Positions 6,462 to 12,188 of a stretch of 64,000 nt of DNA are shown piece after piece. The position numbers and the translations under genes were made by a program. Below the pieces are notes generated by a model, which was not told where the DNA came from, made no database searches, and was given only the letters and a program-made list of their open reading frames with translations. Source of the DNA: Haloplanus ruber. Lineage in GTDB: Archaea > Halobacteriota > Halobacteria > Halobacteriales > Haloferacaceae. How positions within the stretch are numbered: position 1 is the stretch's first letter; every line of letters starts with the position of its first letter. The DNA lies in NCBI RefSeq assembly GCF_024494725.1, contig NZ_JANHDK010000001.1:372001-436000 (forward strand), read 5' to 3'.

Positions 6462-6547
6462 GCGAATCGGGTAGGGGTACTGAGGAGTGTCACACGCGAT
6501 GGGCATCCCGATCCAACGACGCGTTCCCCCCGGAGCCGCGTCGTGTC

Positions 6548-6569
6548 GGCGTCGACGAACGTCGACACC
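6548..6569. repeat. Near-perfect GC-rich palindrome downstream of gatA
   Basis: Arms at 6548-6557 and 6560-6569 match at nine of ten positions around a 2-base centre. Too tight for a normal RNA hairpin loop; it may be a DNA-binding site or incidental. Confidence 0.25.
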
Positions 6570-6605
6570 GAAGTGGTGATCGGAAGGCCCACCTGCAACG
6601 GAGGT

Positions 6606-6627
6606 GCGTAACAGTATAACGTTACGC
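6606..6627. terminator. Inverted repeat GCGTAAC-N8-GTTACGC between convergent genes
   Basis: Perfect 7-bp arms (6606-6612 and 6621-6627) separated by 8 bases, between the 3' ends of gatA and the convergent unknown gene. Position suggests a transcription-end or roadblock element; the GTAAC-N8-GTTAC core also occurs at 1128-1145, so a protein-binding site is an alternative. Confidence 0.3.
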
Positions 6628-6671
6628 CCCGAGTTCTCATCGCTGATATCGGGGGGTGACGGCCGGAACGG

Positions 6672-7097
6672 TCAGTCCGCGGCGCCGTTACGGACCCCGT
6701 CGCGAATCTTCTGTGCCCGCTTGCGGACCCGCTCGACGTATCGCTTGGCTCGCTCTGGTTTGTGGCCGTAGTAGGACGCGACCCACTCGACGTCACCGTA
6801 ATGCTGGGTCACGAAGTACGCCGCGAGGGTGTCCCGGCCAGCTTGGATAATCTCCGGCGGCACGCCCCGCTCGCCGACCCCCTGTTCGTCGAACCCGTTC
6901 ACGTCGAAGTAGACGTCGGCGTACAGCTCCGCCGTCTCCGCGTCGGTGAACGTACAGCCGTCGTGGTGGGGTGCTTCGAACCGGTAGGCGGCGTCGCCCG
7001 CCGCGGTCGTCACCTCGACGATCCGCACGTCGAGGACGTACTCCCGGTGGATTCGTTCGGTTGAGTCGTCGGTCGTCCCGTTGGGTGATCGTGACAT
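6672..7097 (-). CDS. Conserved-looking haloarchaeal hypothetical protein
   Basis: A 141-residue soluble, charged protein that I do not recognise. It has a hydrophilic N-terminus, a mixed central part with aromatic residues (EAPHHDGCTF, ADVYFDVNGFD) and a basic, helical C-terminus rich in Arg/Lys (KPERAKRYVERVRKR), which could bind nucleic acid or a membrane surface. I use the ATG at 7097; the open frame continues to a TTG at 7148 but that would overlap the upstream gene. It lies 31 bases after the cohesin-like gene on the same strand, so it may be the third gene of that operon. Function unknown. Confidence 0.6.
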   Translation of the reverse strand: MSRSPNGTTDDSTERIHREYVLDVRIVEVTTAAGDAAYRFEAPHHDGCTFTDAETAELYADVYFDVNGFDEQGVGERGVPPEIIQAGRDTLAAYFVTQHYGDVEWVASYYGHKPERAKRYVERVRKRAQKIRDGVRNGAAD

Positions 7098-7128
7098 CGT
7101 TGGCGTGTGAGGTGGTCGGCAAGCGGTG

Positions 7129-7851
7129 CTACCGGCGGCGCCGGACAAGCGCGACGGCGACGAGTGCGGTAATCGCGACGACGACCAGCGCCGGGGACAA
7201 CGGCCCGGAGCCGGCGGTTTCGGCCGCGTCGTCGGTCCCCGCGTCGCCCCGTGTCGCGGTCGTCGATTCGGAGGCCGATCCGCCGTCGTCGTCGATAGCC
7301 GTCCCGCTCGCCGTGTCGTCGGACGCCGGGGCGGTGTCGCCGCCGCTTCCGTCGACGGTCACGGTGCCTGCTGCCGTCGCGGGTTGGAACGCGTTTCCGT
7401 CGTCGTCGTCGAACTGCGACGGCGTGACGGTGATGGTCGTCTCGCCGGCTGCGACGCCGCTGATCTCGACGGCCGCGAGTGTCACGTCGGTCGCACCGGG
7501 GTCGATCTGTCCCTCCATATCGGCGGCTTCGAGGGTGGCCGTCGCCCCGTCGTCACCGACGCTCGGCGAGGTGGTCAGCGCGAATTGCTCGGGGTAGCTC
7601 GCCCCCTCGATCTGCGCCACCTCCGGATTCTCGACGGTGATATCGAGGTAGTATCCTGCGAGACCGTTCGGGGCGTTCGTCAGGACGACCCCGACGGTCG
7701 TCGTCCCGTCGGCGGCCACCGTGTCGCCGACGACGCGGACGGTCGGTTGTTCGCTCTGTGCCGTGACGGTCCCCGCCGTCGCCACCGCCCCGAGGAGGGC
7801 GAGCGCCGCCAGGGTGACCGCGAGTATCGAAACGTGTCGTGGGTGAGTCAT
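7129..7851 (-). CDS. Membrane-anchored protein with an extracellular cohesin-like domain
   Basis: 240 residues: signal peptide at about 1-31, a cohesin-like beta domain at about 37-168 (NPEVA, VGDDGATATL and DDDGNAF landmarks), a low-complexity Ser/Thr/Asp/Gly linker at 169-215, a hydrophobic helix at 219-236 and a terminal RRRR. That architecture holds the domain outside the cell on a stalk. The tail resembles a PGF-CTERM archaeosortase signal in layout but lacks the Pro-Gly-Phe, so simple membrane anchoring is more likely. The domain is clearly related to the one in the upstream dockerin-bearing PhoX-like protein (69 bases away, same strand). Inferred role: a surface receptor for the neighbour's dockerin. 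Confidence 0.75.
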   Translation of the reverse strand: MTHPRHVSILAVTLAALALLGAVATAGTVTAQSEQPTVRVVGDTVAADGTTTVGVVLTNAPNGLAGYYLDITVENPEVAQIEGASYPEQFALTTSPSVGDDGATATLEAADMEGQIDPGATDVTLAAVEISGVAAGETTITVTPSQFDDDDGNAFQPATAAGTVTVDGSGGDTAPASDDTASGTAIDDDGGSASESTTATRGDAGTDDAAETAGSGPLSPALVVVAITALVAVALVRRRR

Positions 7852-7920
7852 CGTGTGTGGTAATATTCTGGGGGGTGGGTGGGGTGGGGCCGCGTGGTGC
7901 GGCGCCCGAGCGACGGGCCG

Positions 7921-10608
7921 TCAGTTGATATCTTCGTAGAGGGAGACGATGTCGTCGAAGTCCAGCCGGCCGTTCTCGTTGAAGTCGTAGGCGGACTTGT
8001 TCATCGTGACGCTGTCGGCGTCGAAGTTATCGAACAGGATCTGGATATCCTCGTAGTCCAGCCGTCCGTTGCCGTTGAGGTCCTCGAAGAAGCCGTCGCC
8101 GTCGACGTCGGTCGGGGCGCTCCCGCCGGCGACCGTCGGCGGGCCAGTGACGAGGACGCCACGCCGGGTCTGGGCGTCGATAGCGTTCCCGCTCTCGTCG
8201 TCCATCTGGGTGACTTCGAGTTCGAGGTCGGTAGTGCCGGTGTCGACGCCGCGGAGCGTCAGCGTGGCGACGGGGATATTGCGGCCGCCGGCCTCGACGT
8301 TGCCGTCGACGTCGGCGAACCGAAGCGTCGCCGAGGTGCCGTCCGAGCCTACCGTGCTTTCGGTGAGACCGAGTTCCTCGGGGAACTCGACGCCGGTGAT
8401 GGTCGCCACCTCGGGGTTCGTCACCGAGACGGTGACCTCGGCGCCGGAGAAGCCGGTCGGGAGCGATGAGGCCGTCAGTTCGGCCGCGCCGGTTGCGCCG
8501 TAGCCGACAGCGATAGAGTCGACGTCGAGCGAGACGTTCGGCTGGAAGACATAGAGTCCGTCGTTGGGGTACGAGCGGGCGGGACCGCCGAAGCCGTCCT
8601 CACAGCAGAGGACACGGCCGTCACGCATCGCGTAGACGTTGTCGATGTTGCGAAGTCCGTCGTCGGCGTCCTGGGGGCTGTCGGTGAAGTCGGGACCGGT
8701 GATGACCGGTTCGAGCGTCGAGACGTTGTAGTTGGGCTCGAGTTCCGCGCGGAAGACCACGCCGCCGTCGACGCGGTCCATCCGGATGTCGCCCGTCTCG
8801 TCGGCGAGGTCGTCGTTGAACTCGGAGATGCCGAAGTACACGAAGTCGCCGGGCTGGGAGTCGTCGACGCTGTCGACGCCCTCGGCCTTGTTGAACTCGA
8901 TGGACGCACCGATCTCCTTTGCGGCCGCGCGCATCTCGAGGAACGGCACCTTGCGAAGCTCTTCGTCGACGCCGTCGGGACCCGCCTCCTCGTACTGGGC
9001 GGCCCACTCGACGATTTCCTCGTTCGAGATGTAGTTCTGGTTGCCGTTCTCGATGACTTCGAGGTCGGCCTCCCGGATGGCCTGGTTGTAACTGACGTCC
9101 AGGCCGAGTTCGTCCTCGCTGTACTCGGTGTGGGTCGTGAGGTAGTCCGTCTGCGTCACGTCGTCGTACTCGGCGATCCACTCCTTGACCTCGCCGTTCG
9201 TGGCGTGACCCAGTTCGATCCACTCGACTTCGAGGTTCGTGTTGGCCGGGGAGTTGCGCTGGCCGGCTTCTTCGGCGTTCGCGGCGTCGTTCGTGATCTT
9301 CGGGGCGTAGATCGTGCCCGCGATGTTGTCCGTGTTCTCGTAGCTCGGGATCGGCTCGTCGGCGACGAACTTGTAGATCCCCTTGCTGTCGCCGTCGGAG
9401 CAGCCGTAGAGGGTCTTGTTGTCGCCCTGGAAGTCGGGGGCCTCCCAGGAGGCGCGGCCCGCAACCCAGTATTTCATCGGCTCCGGCTCCTCGGCGGTCG
9501 GCTCGCGGACGTCAACGTGGTAGCCGTAGCGGTAGGGGTTCGGATAGACGTCGTCGATGGGCGTCACGACGCTCTCGCCGGGCTCTTCGTCGCCGTCGGG
9601 TACCTCGGCGCCCAGATAGTACGCGAGGAACTCGACGCCGGTAAGCGCCCAGTAGCCCTGCGGTCCCCAGGCTTCGTCCAGGTCGCCCTCCTCGGCGTAG
9701 GTGCCGATGGCGCCGGCGATTTCCGACGGATTCGGCCGGTTCCAGAACTGACAGCCGCCGAGCAGCCCCTCACCGCTACCGGCCTCGACGACGTCGCCGA
9801 CCGTGTTGGTCAGCGAGACGCGGGGATGCGCGTAGTTCTCCTCGGAGGAGATGGGCGTCTCCCACGGGCTGAGGTCGCCGTAGCAGTTGATACGGGTGCC
9901 GCCGAGTTCGCGAAGCCCGTCGGTGTTCGGGATGTTCATCGCGTCCTCGGGATCGGCGCTCCACTCGCCGTTCTCGTCCTGGCTGATGTAGACTCGCGAG
10001 AGACCACCGGGGCTGTTCTCCCAGTTGGTGTACAGGTAGCCCTCGGTCCCCTCGTCGTCCGTCGGGACGAACTGATTGCAGTCCGGGTTCGTCGCCGCGC
10101 CCCCGTACTGCGTGCCCGCGAAGTTGTCCTGCGTGATGTCGGTACCGTCCGGCGTCTGGGCGACGCCGAGGCGTTCTGCGCCGCCGTTGATCGGCTCTCG
10201 ACCCTGGATCAGAATCTCGTAGTCGCCCACCTCGGATCGAACTTCGCGCTGTTTCGCCTCGGTGTCGGGAATCCCGACCTCGGAGAAGTCGTCGTTGTTT
10301 CCGTCGAACTCGAAGTTGAAGCCGCTGAAGTATCCGACCGCCGCCCGGTCGAAGGGCTCGGTGTTGGCTTCCTCCGGGTGCTGGAGGCTGTACAGCAGGG
10401 AGCCGTCTTCGAAGACGAACGGTCCCGTCACCTCGGCGCCGAACGCCGTCGTCGAGAGGCGCTTGAGACTCCCCTTGACGCTCGGCGCCCCCGGCGTGTC
10501 ACCCTCCGAAATCTCCGATTCGCTCGCGCTTGCGACCCCTGAGACGCTCGCGCCGAGCGCGGCAGCTGTTGACGTTGCCATCAATCGTCGTCGAGTCAAA
10601 TCGACCAT
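7921..10608 (-). CDS. Secreted PhoX-family (DUF839) protein with cohesin-like and dockerin domains
   Basis: 895 residues. A Tat-type signal peptide (TRRRLMATS at about 5-13, cleavage near 28) implies folded export. Residues about 40-690 resemble PhoX/DUF839 beta-propeller phosphatases: the SPWETPISSEENYAHP segment matches the PhoX motif around its Glu-Glu-Asn, and cofactor-type aspartates and a late CCEDG occur. Residues about 691-832 form a cohesin-like domain; 833-895 form a type I dockerin with two Ca-binding loops starting at Asp843 and Asp875 (DxNxNGxLD). PhoX enzymes release phosphate from organic esters using calcium and iron, so phosphate scavenging is plausible but activity is unproven. 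The following gene encodes an anchored cohesin-like protein. The three-domain combination is unusual. Confidence 0.82.
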   Translation of the reverse strand: MVDLTRRRLMATSTAAALGASVSGVASASESEISEGDTPGAPSVKGSLKRLSTTAFGAEVTGPFVFEDGSLLYSLQHPEEANTEPFDRAAVGYFSGFNFEFDGNNDDFSEVGIPDTEAKQREVRSEVGDYEILIQGREPINGGAERLGVAQTPDGTDITQDNFAGTQYGGAATNPDCNQFVPTDDEGTEGYLYTNWENSPGGLSRVYISQDENGEWSADPEDAMNIPNTDGLRELGGTRINCYGDLSPWETPISSEENYAHPRVSLTNTVGDVVEAGSGEGLLGGCQFWNRPNPSEIAGAIGTYAEEGDLDEAWGPQGYWALTGVEFLAYYLGAEVPDGDEEPGESVVTPIDDVYPNPYRYGYHVDVREPTAEEPEPMKYWVAGRASWEAPDFQGDNKTLYGCSDGDSKGIYKFVADEPIPSYENTDNIAGTIYAPKITNDAANAEEAGQRNSPANTNLEVEWIELGHATNGEVKEWIAEYDDVTQTDYLTTHTEYSEDELGLDVSYNQAIREADLEVIENGNQNYISNEEIVEWAAQYEEAGPDGVDEELRKVPFLEMRAAAKEIGASIEFNKAEGVDSVDDSQPGDFVYFGISEFNDDLADETGDIRMDRVDGGVVFRAELEPNYNVSTLEPVITGPDFTDSPQDADDGLRNIDNVYAMRDGRVLCCEDGFGGPARSYPNDGLYVFQPNVSLDVDSIAVGYGATGAAELTASSLPTGFSGAEVTVSVTNPEVATITGVEFPEELGLTESTVGSDGTSATLRFADVDGNVEAGGRNIPVATLTLRGVDTGTTDLELEVTQMDDESGNAIDAQTRRGVLVTGPPTVAGGSAPTDVDGDGFFEDLNGNGRLDYEDIQILFDNFDADSVTMNKSAYDFNENGRLDFDDIVSLYEDIN

Positions 10609-10640
10609 GCGGGTGAACCCGGGGAGAGGTGCACAAAAGC

Positions 10641-10650
10641 GTTTTATATG
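10641..10650 (-). promoter_or_regulatory. Putative TATA box for the PhoX-dockerin operon
   Basis: Minus-strand CATATAAAAC centred about 38 nt before the ATG at 10608, implying a short leader of roughly 10 nt. One of the best TATA matches in the window. Confidence 0.5.
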
Positions 10651-10822
10651 ATCCCTACGTCGTGGTGTGATCCGTCCACCCAGTCGGGTATGGGGATATA
10701 TCTCATCGGACCACTTCTAACGGGGCGACCCGACCCGGGCGATCAAGCCGTTACCGGCGGCTACGACGGGTCGAGTAATAAGTGTACGCCGAAGATTTTC
10801 AGCTGTGATATTCGGCCGCCAG

Positions 10823-10854
10823 GTGACGGCCGTTGACGGCGCCCCGGCCGTCAC
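10823..10854. terminator. Hairpin at the trkA stop codon
   Basis: Perfect 10-bp GC-rich arms (10823-10832 and 10845-10854) with a 12-base loop; the trkA stop codon lies inside the right arm. A candidate transcript-end structure for trkA, though no clear T tract follows. Confidence 0.35.
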
Positions 10855-12188
10855 AGCCTCGGGGTCACGTCGTCCGCGACGCAGGCATCGAGGAAGACGA
10901 CGACGTGATCCCCCGACTGGATCACCGTGTCCCCGCGCGGGGTGATCAGACTCGCGTTCCGGGTGATGGCGCCGATGACGACGCCGTCGGGGAGGTCGGC
11001 GACGGACTCGTGGATCGGCCGGCCCGCGAGGACGCTCGCCTCGTCTACCTCGACTTCGAGCACTTCGGCTCGGTCGCTCTCGATAATGGCGACGTTCTCG
11101 GCGCCGCCGTCACGGGTGAATCGGGTAATCTCCTCGGCCACCACCTCTCGGGGGTTGATCCCGACGTCGACGCCGACAGTCTCGAACAGTTCGACGTACG
11201 CCGCGGTATCGATGACGGCCACGGTTCGCTCGACGCCGAGACGGCGCGCCAGCAGCGACATCAAGAGATTCTTCTCGTCGGAGTCGAGTGCCGCGACCAC
11301 GAAGTCGGCATCGCCGACGTGTTCGCGCTCCAGGAAGTCGACGTCCGTGGCGTCGCTTTGCATCACCACGGCGTTCGGGAGGTCCTCCGCGAGTTGCCGG
11401 GCACGCTCCGGGTCCCGTTCGATCAGCCGTGGCTTGAACCCGCGCTCGCCGAGCAGTCGGGCGACGTGATAGCCAATCTCGCTCCCGCCGATGATGACGA
11501 CTTCCTCGGCCGTGCCAGGGCGTTCGTCCGGGGCGATGGTCGTCGCGAACCCCCGAACCGACTCGGGACTCCCGATCACGACCACGCGGTCGCCTTCTCC
11601 GAGGATCGTATCTCCGTGGGCGATTTCCACGTCGTCGTCCCGAAGAACGGCGGCGAAGGTGAGGCTCTCGAAGCGGTCGGCCTCGGCGATGGACTGATCG
11701 GTCACCGGGCTTCCCGTCGGAATCTCGAACTCCGCCATCTGCACGTGGCCGTCCGCGAAGGAGTCCACGTCGCGGGCGGCGGGAATGCCGACCACTCGAA
11801 CGATGGATTCCGCCGCGAGCAGGTTCGTACAGACCATAAAGTCGATGCCGAAGGCCCGCTGTGATCGCTCCCACGTCCGCAGATACTCCGTGTTCTTGAC
11901 GCGAGCGATGGTGAACGAGTCGCTCACCGCACGCACCGTCGAGCAGATGACGATGTTCGTCTCGTCGTCGTCGGTGCTGGCGATGACCATGTCGGCCTCC
12001 TCGATGTCGGCTTCTTCTAGCGTCGATAGGGAGGTGCCGTCCCCCTGAACCGTCAACACGTCGAGCGAGTAGGCCAGATCCTCGGTCCGGTCACCGTCGC
12101 GGTCCACGACGACGATGTCGTGTGAGTCTGCGAGGTCGGCCGCGATGCTCGATCCGACCTGGCCCGCGCCGACGACGATTATGTGCAC
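10851..12188 (-). CDS. trkA: Trk potassium transport regulatory subunit TrkA (two tandem RCK units)
   Basis: Cytoplasmic NAD(H)-binding gating subunit of Trk/Ktr potassium channels. Full-length, 445 residues, with the duplicated TrkA plan: RCK_N at about 1-135 with GAGQVG at 7-12, RCK_C at about 150-215, second RCK_N from about 229 (IIGGSEIGYHVA) and second RCK_C to the end. The start is GTG (MHIIVVGAG), fitting the family N-terminus exactly. The membrane subunit TrkH is not adjacent. In a haloarchaeon, which accumulates molar potassium, this is central to ion balance. A SRPBCC protein gene lies 64 bases upstream on the same strand. Confidence 0.93.
   Translation of the reverse strand: MHIIVVGAGQVGSSIAADLADSHDIVVVDRDGDRTEDLAYSLDVLTVQGDGTSLSTLEEADIEEADMVIASTDDDETNIVICSTVRAVSDSFTIARVKNTEYLRTWERSQRAFGIDFMVCTNLLAAESIVRVVGIPAARDVDSFADGHVQMAEFEIPTGSPVTDQSIAEADRFESLTFAAVLRDDDVEIAHGDTILGEGDRVVVIGSPESVRGFATTIAPDERPGTAEEVVIIGGSEIGYHVARLLGERGFKPRLIERDPERARQLAEDLPNAVVMQSDATDVDFLEREHVGDADFVVAALDSDEKNLLMSLLARRLGVERTVAVIDTAAYVELFETVGVDVGINPREVVAEEITRFTRDGGAENVAIIESDRAEVLEVEVDEASVLAGRPIHESVADLPDGVVIGAITRNASLITPRGDTVIQSGDHVVVFLDACVADDVTPRL

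Follow-up and report, generated by a model that had tools for sequence, protein, structure and literature searches.

The 64,000-nucleotide window analyzed here (positions 372,001 to 436,000 of contig NZ_JANHDK010000001.1, assembly GCF_024494725.1, of the haloarchaeon Haloplanus ruber) contains two adjacent genes, which encode a PhoX-family phosphatase ending in a dockerin, and a small cohesin-bearing protein that is probably anchored in the membrane. The first gene, PhoX-CohX-Doc (7921..10608; like all the features described below, on the minus strand), was recognized as an open reading frame (ORF) with a Pfam PhoX match and homology to solved PhoX structures, and its product of 895 amino acids (aa) consists of a signal of the twin-arginine translocation (Tat) type, the PhoX catalytic region, a cohesin-fold module (CohX), and a C-terminal dockerin (Doc). 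The CohA anchor gene (7129..7851), recognized by its ORF and its conserved position, lies downstream across an intergenic gap of 69 nucleotides (nt), and encodes a 240-aa protein with a signal peptide, a cohesin-fold module, an acidic stalk, and a C-terminal membrane helix. A TATA-like box (TATAAAA, 10642..10648) was read by eye some 35–40 nt 5' of the PhoX start codon, and none was seen by eye in the gap that precedes CohA, so the arrangement is consistent with a single transcript of the two genes. An earlier interpretation based on the letters and ORFs, referred to here as the sequence-only reading, had given the same two genes, lengths, and 69-base spacing, which the minus-strand ORFs reproduce, and had proposed a haloarchaeal origin, in agreement with the orthologous pairs found in Haloplanus, Haloarcula, Halorubrum, Halorientalis, Natrinema, and other genera.

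The catalytic region (residues 41-688; 8545..10488, delimited by profile alignment to 3zwu) belongs to the PhoX family, given that the 895-aa protein matches Pfam PF05787 with 50.6 bits against a cut-off of 24, and is homologous to the solved PhoX 3zwu/4a9v (E 1e-9, profile alignment). In the alignment to 3zwu, residues C242, E389, and D405 correspond to C179, E273, and D292 of the Pseudomonas fluorescens PhoX, which we take to be metal ligands, or the active-site Cys, Glu, and Asp of the enzyme. These three positions, to which the comparison of the ligands was confined, are invariant across 21 aligned sequences, and the protein would probably have phosphomonoesterase activity. The Fe-thiolate of PhoX has been noted elsewhere (PMC4223295). 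The Tat-type signal (LTRRRLMA...ASA, residues 1-28; 10525..10608) was read from the sequence, and its twin arginines, R6 and R7, are invariant in the same 21 sequences; the NCBIfam model TAT_signal_seq scores 10.8 bits on this N-terminus, under its cut-off of 16.7. The signal and the PhoX region of the sequence-only reading are thus upheld, by the invariant arginines and by a PF05787 score over the cut-off, respectively. The dockerin-bearing PhoX sequences end at the dockerin, and no anchor of their own was seen in them.

The two cohesin-fold modules, CohX (residues 689-822 of the PhoX protein; 8143..8544) and CohA (residues 34-166; 7354..7752), were modeled by AlphaFold with a predicted local distance difference test score (pLDDT) mostly of around 90 and mostly above 90, respectively, and both models have a cohesin-type beta-sandwich fold. 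In VIA-align comparisons, the CohX model matches the type I cohesin 6kgc_A (Z 17.0, root-mean-square deviation, rmsd, 1.9) and the archaeal cohesin 2xdh (Z 16.2, with approximately 15% sequence identity over the fold match), while the CohA model matches the type I cohesin 5nrk_A (Z 15.5, rmsd 2.4). The best matches in the PDB are cohesins, with Foldseek template modeling scores, normalized by target, of up to 0.79. The two domains are also mutually homologous (BLASTP E 8e-19), which, together with the Z scores, bears out the earlier description of cohesin-like domains in both proteins. Searches of Pfam, NCBIfam, and the PDB with the single CohA sequence returned no significant match. Among the relatives, the Pfam Cohesin family is matched by 5 of the 25 members of A3 (an alignment of CohX-Doc-CohA sequences with CohA-only rows left out; CohX is left out of A6), with a best E of 5.2e-6, and by 5 of the 39 anchor-type members of A4 (best E 6.3e-5), in which it is the Pfam family with the most matches. 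A profile of the 39 anchor-type sequences recovers scaffoldin cohesins from the PDB (5lxv_A, E 0.013; 5aoz, 0.042; 5m2o, 0.13), as well as one unrelated chain (E 0.12). In a cohesin tree, 38 PhoX-linked anchors (Shimodaira–Hasegawa-like approximate likelihood-ratio test, SH-aLRT, 94) are split off from the CohX modules (87), a separation of moderate weight, as it comes from a quick method on a short alignment, and the two sockets thus appear to be ancient paralogues that have been kept distinct.

The dockerin (residues 829-895; 7924..8124) was delimited from Dockerin_1 matches in the relatives, profile matches in the PDB, and the helices of the model. It contains two calcium loops, DLNGNGRLDYED (8047..8082) and DFNENGRLDFDD (7951..7986), in which the ligand positions 1, 3, 5, 9, and 12 are kept in nearly all of 30 dockerin sequences, and a helix follows each loop in the AlphaFold models. 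The module is duplicated, with 10 identities between its two 20-residue halves in the window, and a mean of 10.1 over the 30 sequences, compared with 2.0 when shuffled. A dockerin profile has the dockerins 6kgc_B, 2mte, and 1daq as its top PDB matches (E 0.05-0.08), Dockerin_1 (PF00404) is matched by every one of the 25 sequences in A3 at E<=1 (with 5.6e-6 as the best value), and one relative, the dockerin of locus L066, exceeds the Dockerin_1 cut-off with 30.0 bits. These duplicated loops, with their conserved ligands, agree with the C-terminal type I dockerin described previously, and they would be expected to bind calcium.

CohA has the architecture of a surface anchor. Its signal peptide (residues 1-32; 7756..7851), read from the sequence, is of the Sec type, with no twin arginine, and a hydrophobic N-terminus is also present in the orthologues. 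The cohesin module is followed by a Ser/Thr/Asp/Gly stalk (residues 167-216; 7204..7353), of which S, T, D, E, G, and P make up roughly 60-90% in the haloarchaeal orthologues, and then by a C-terminal membrane helix (7144..7200) and the motif RRRR, all read from the sequence. The haloarchaeal anchors mostly have a C-terminal hydrophobic helix of this kind, and some have a PGF-CTERM motif, as in orthologue L081 (39.5 bits against a cut-off of 24.5); the CohA of the window has no PGF motif. The succession of signal peptide, cohesin-like domain, stalk, and helix proposed in the sequence-only reading is therefore supported by both the sequence and the orthologues.

The association of the two genes is conserved across the haloarchaea. 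CohA lies directly downstream in 37 of the 43 distinct PhoX-CohX-Doc loci (in one of them, L050, it is frame-shifted), and adjoins none of 25 informative loci of dockerin-less PhoX. For the control, 26 PhoX genes that lack a dockerin were taken from the same family, one of which (L168) is cut off by the end of its contig and carries no information; counting all 26, the Fisher test gives approximately 1e-13, uncorrected for relatedness. The co-occurrence suggested by the sequence-only reading as a check is thus present, and the chance co-location of PhoX and CohA is ruled out by this control. Strong matches to the CohX-Doc-CohA profile were found in 133 of 392 genomes, representing 45 of the 95 genera of the order, and the orthologous loci include L073 and L074, from Haloarcula amylolytica and H. 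vallismortis. Two other loci are of interest here: at L178:2033-4531, PhoX has a CohX module with neither a dockerin nor an adjacent CohA, and at L171:2108-4540, a dockerin-less PhoX has a PGF-CTERM-like tail (sub-threshold), which suggests that the mode of anchoring was swapped.

In profile searches of the whole source genome, the only members of these families recovered were a single dockerin and two cohesins, all within this pair, and CohA is therefore favored as the docking partner. The phosphatase would be folded and leave the cell through Tat, CohA would follow the Sec route and stay attached by its C-terminal helix, and the dockerin of the phosphatase, ordered by two calcium ions, would dock on the cohesin of CohA, which would retain the secreted phosphomonoesterase at the cell surface. 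Sequences, profiles, or predicted folds establish the PhoX family, the fold of both cohesins, the dockerin with its calcium loops, the export signals, the membrane helix, and the conserved pairing; from these we infer the docking itself, and CohA rather than CohX as the partner. The probability of PhoX being retained at the surface by the calcium-loaded dockerin on membrane-held CohA is put at about 0.6. Precedents exist, given that archaeal cohesin-dockerin pairs bind specifically, according to a passage in PMC9012536 that cites Bayer 1999 and Haimovitz 2008, and the Archaeoglobus pair serves as a tool for surface attachment (PMC9705933).

A number of results weigh against this interpretation. 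Pfam Cohesin (PF00963) gives no single-sequence match for either window protein, and the window dockerin alone scores 9.6-10.8 bits against the Dockerin_1 cut-off of 22.9, which is why the assignment of these modules was drawn from the relatives and the folds; of the Pfam families named in the sequence-only reading, the window sequences thus reach the PhoX cut-off and miss those of Dockerin and Cohesin, both of which are matched in relatives. Six PhoX-CohX-Doc genes (L055, L056, L057, L077, L089, and L179) have no CohA beside them. Four of these (L055, L056, L077, and L089) form one group of the CohX tree (SH-aLRT 95), from which L179 was left out, and L057 is placed apart from them, which suggests that CohA was lost about twice. 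In genomes G008, G009, and G043, CohX is the sole cohesin found. In addition, no confident placement of the dockerin on CohA was obtained from AlphaFold, which was run on single chains in which the phoX stop codon TGA was read as Trp, purely as a device for joining the modules. The three modules of the CohX-Doc-linker-CohA model (25 sequences) are mostly above pLDDT 85, and the predicted template modeling score (pTM) is 0.45 for this model and 0.57 for Doc-linker-CohA, near the values expected for unlinked modules by our own estimate. The surface docking of the phosphatase put forward in the sequence-only reading is accordingly favored by the conserved gene pairing, and the single-chain models point neither way; the possible role of CohX as a rival partner had not been considered there.

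This rival would have the dockerin bind CohX, either within its own chain, as a clamp that depends on calcium, or on a neighboring molecule, giving PhoX dimers or chains, with CohA acting only as a cap or a weak tether. In the PhoX proteins, CohX immediately precedes the dockerin, and may be its partner in the three genomes in which no other cohesin was found; the three-module pTM of 0.45 is slightly above our estimate for independent modules, and cargo proteins with a cohesin and a dockerin (Coh-Doc) also exist with no adjacent anchor. Binding to CohX is nevertheless considered unlikely, given that the anchor is kept beside most of the dockerin-bearing PhoX genes and is absent beside the dockerin-less ones, that some relatives have a dockerin protein with no cohesin of its own and a cohesin neighbor, and that CohA and CohX are maintained as separate paralogues. 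Both cohesins may also bind the dockerin, with a first PhoX on CohA and more added through CohX to form a chain of phosphatases on the surface. A genome with two cohesins for a single dockerin would fit such a chain, and both Archaeoglobus cohesins reportedly bind the single dockerin of that organism (Voronov-Goldman, in 2011); against it, there is no direct evidence of multimers, and the AlphaFold models lack a confident interface, and this arrangement is considered very unlikely.

The lack of a predicted interface would also be compatible with modules that do not dock at all, in which case the cohesin folds and calcium loops would be calcium-stabilized spacers, or tails that bind substrates or glycans, and studies of haloarchaeal polysaccharide enzymes have read dockerins as substrate-binding (PMC10963439, PMC13260240). 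The strict pairing of dockerin cargo with a cohesin anchor, which is lost where the dockerin is absent, would be unexpected for independent tails, however, and this explanation is considered extremely improbable. The docking of PhoX on CohA is thus retained as the preferred interpretation.

Similar tails and anchors are found on other archaeal proteins. A Coh-Doc or Doc tail is also present on a choice-of-anchor I protein (L061), an ExeM/UshA-like 5'-nucleotidase (L064), SNase proteins (L053 and L099), PKD proteins (L066), and a subtilase (L103) of the anaerobic methanotrophic archaea (ANME), and related anchors adjoin dockerin-bearing nuclease, protease, and PKD proteins in both haloarchaea and ANME. 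The Coh-Doc cargo with no adjacent anchor is found at L061-L063. Among 49 dockerin proteins with no cohesin (mostly from methanogens and ANME, with one from an Aenigmarchaeon), 11 are followed within 300 nt by a cohesin gene, several of them overlapping by 4 nt, and many of the remainder come from short contigs or from arrays of several genes. As these proteins can directly precede a cohesin protein of the family, the cohesin of the neighbor is a natural receptor. It is conceivable, if quite unlikely, that there is a general haloarchaeal calcium-dependent plug-and-socket platform, in which various nutrient-scavenging enzymes (phosphatase, 5'-nucleotidase, and nuclease) have a terminal Coh-Doc unit, dock on single-cohesin membrane anchors, and form chains on the surface through their own cohesin, with no scaffoldin.

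Larger arrangements were also observed. A 2378-aa haloarchaeal protein (L059:207-7343) combines two cohesin-like modules with a PGF-type C-terminus, and is possibly a two-socket anchor, while a row of several cohesin-bearing and dockerin-bearing proteins (L071:2997-17846, genome G045) is possibly a larger haloarchaeal scaffold. Coh-Doc proteins occur in ANME-2, Syntrophoarchaeum, and Methanophagales (L101:2493-4517, L102:807-2843, L103:3823-7493, L106:1828-6427, and L112:3358-8087); that of L103 is the subtilase, that of L112 has a Rv2525c-like glycoside-hydrolase domain, and some directly precede a cohesin gene.

A third conserved gene (6672..7100), recognized by its linkage to PhoX, begins 28 nt after CohA, and encodes a 142-aa protein in which no signal peptide was seen and for which no Pfam or NCBIfam match was found. 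It lies on either side of PhoX, whether or not PhoX has the dockerin, and among 167 genomes of the family, a close homologue is present in all 47 of those with PhoX, in equal copy number (1, 2, or 3), and in just one further genome, with more distant homologues in PhoX-less genomes. In this exception (G068, of the same genus), a natural deletion has left a remnant of the PhoX locus (L180:2288-3489), which keeps the PhoX N-terminus and traces of the dockerin and of the CohA C-terminus, with the small gene intact. The third gene is thus a candidate for a dedicated partner or maturation factor of PhoX, and a reasonable guess is that its product is a cytoplasmic partner that folds or loads PhoX before Tat export. 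The locus also points to an unannotated gene family that tracks the haloarchaeal PhoX one-to-one. An Rfam search of 6500-11000 found no RNA families.

Non-cellulosomal cohesin-dockerin pairs are already known from Archaeoglobus and ANME (PMC9012536, PMC9705933), and no paper on haloarchaeal cohesin anchors was found in a literature search whose coverage excluded most subscription papers; the phosphatase cargo, the one-socket membrane anchor, and the haloarchaeal breadth appear to be new. If the docking is true, the haloarchaeal dockerins would gain a receptor and a role, that of holding secreted enzymes at the surface, in a system with phosphatase cargo and minimal parts (one plug and two sockets), and the long-open function of non-cellulosomal archaeal cohesins could be tested in culturable species, such as Haloarcula.

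The closest points of comparison are the known cohesin-dockerin systems and the known means of surface retention. That of Archaeoglobus fulgidus (2xdh) is likewise archaeal and non-cellulolytic, with few modules (reportedly two cohesins, each able to bind its single dockerin), and its cohesin is matched by the CohX fold, whereas here the dockerin is carried by a PhoX phosphatase, and the other cohesin protein is a stalked membrane anchor. The dockerin and cohesin proteins of ANME and methanogens were found by the same profiles, and have adjacent cargo and cohesin genes. In these archaea, however, binding proteins of ABC transporters are reported as common cargo, and scaffoldin-like proteins have up to five cohesins (PMC9012536), in contrast with the one-socket anchor and phosphatase cargo of this haloarchaeal system. 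The bacterial PhoX of P. fluorescens (3zwu/4a9v) shares the family, the Tat-type signal, and the equivalents of C179, E273, and D292, whereas the haloarchaeal protein, which is far diverged (profile E 1e-9), adds the C-terminal cohesin and dockerin. Anchoring by PGF-CTERM and archaeosortase is an alternative means of retaining haloarchaeal surface proteins, and is used by some CohA orthologues (such as L081), whereas the retention of PhoX would here be non-covalent, through a partner. The type I cellulosome of the clostridia has the same cohesin fold, duplicated calcium loops, and enzyme-plus-anchor logic, but the haloarchaeal system has no multi-cohesin scaffoldin, no carbohydrate-active cargo, and one dockerin in the genome. 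The label “cellulosome” is thus ruled out for two cohesin modules in two proteins and a single dockerin, found on PhoX, and the cellulosome analogy of the sequence-only reading overstates the case, because the locus has no multi-cohesin scaffold, and its likeness to the clostridial system lies in its modules and in the pairing of an enzyme with an anchor.

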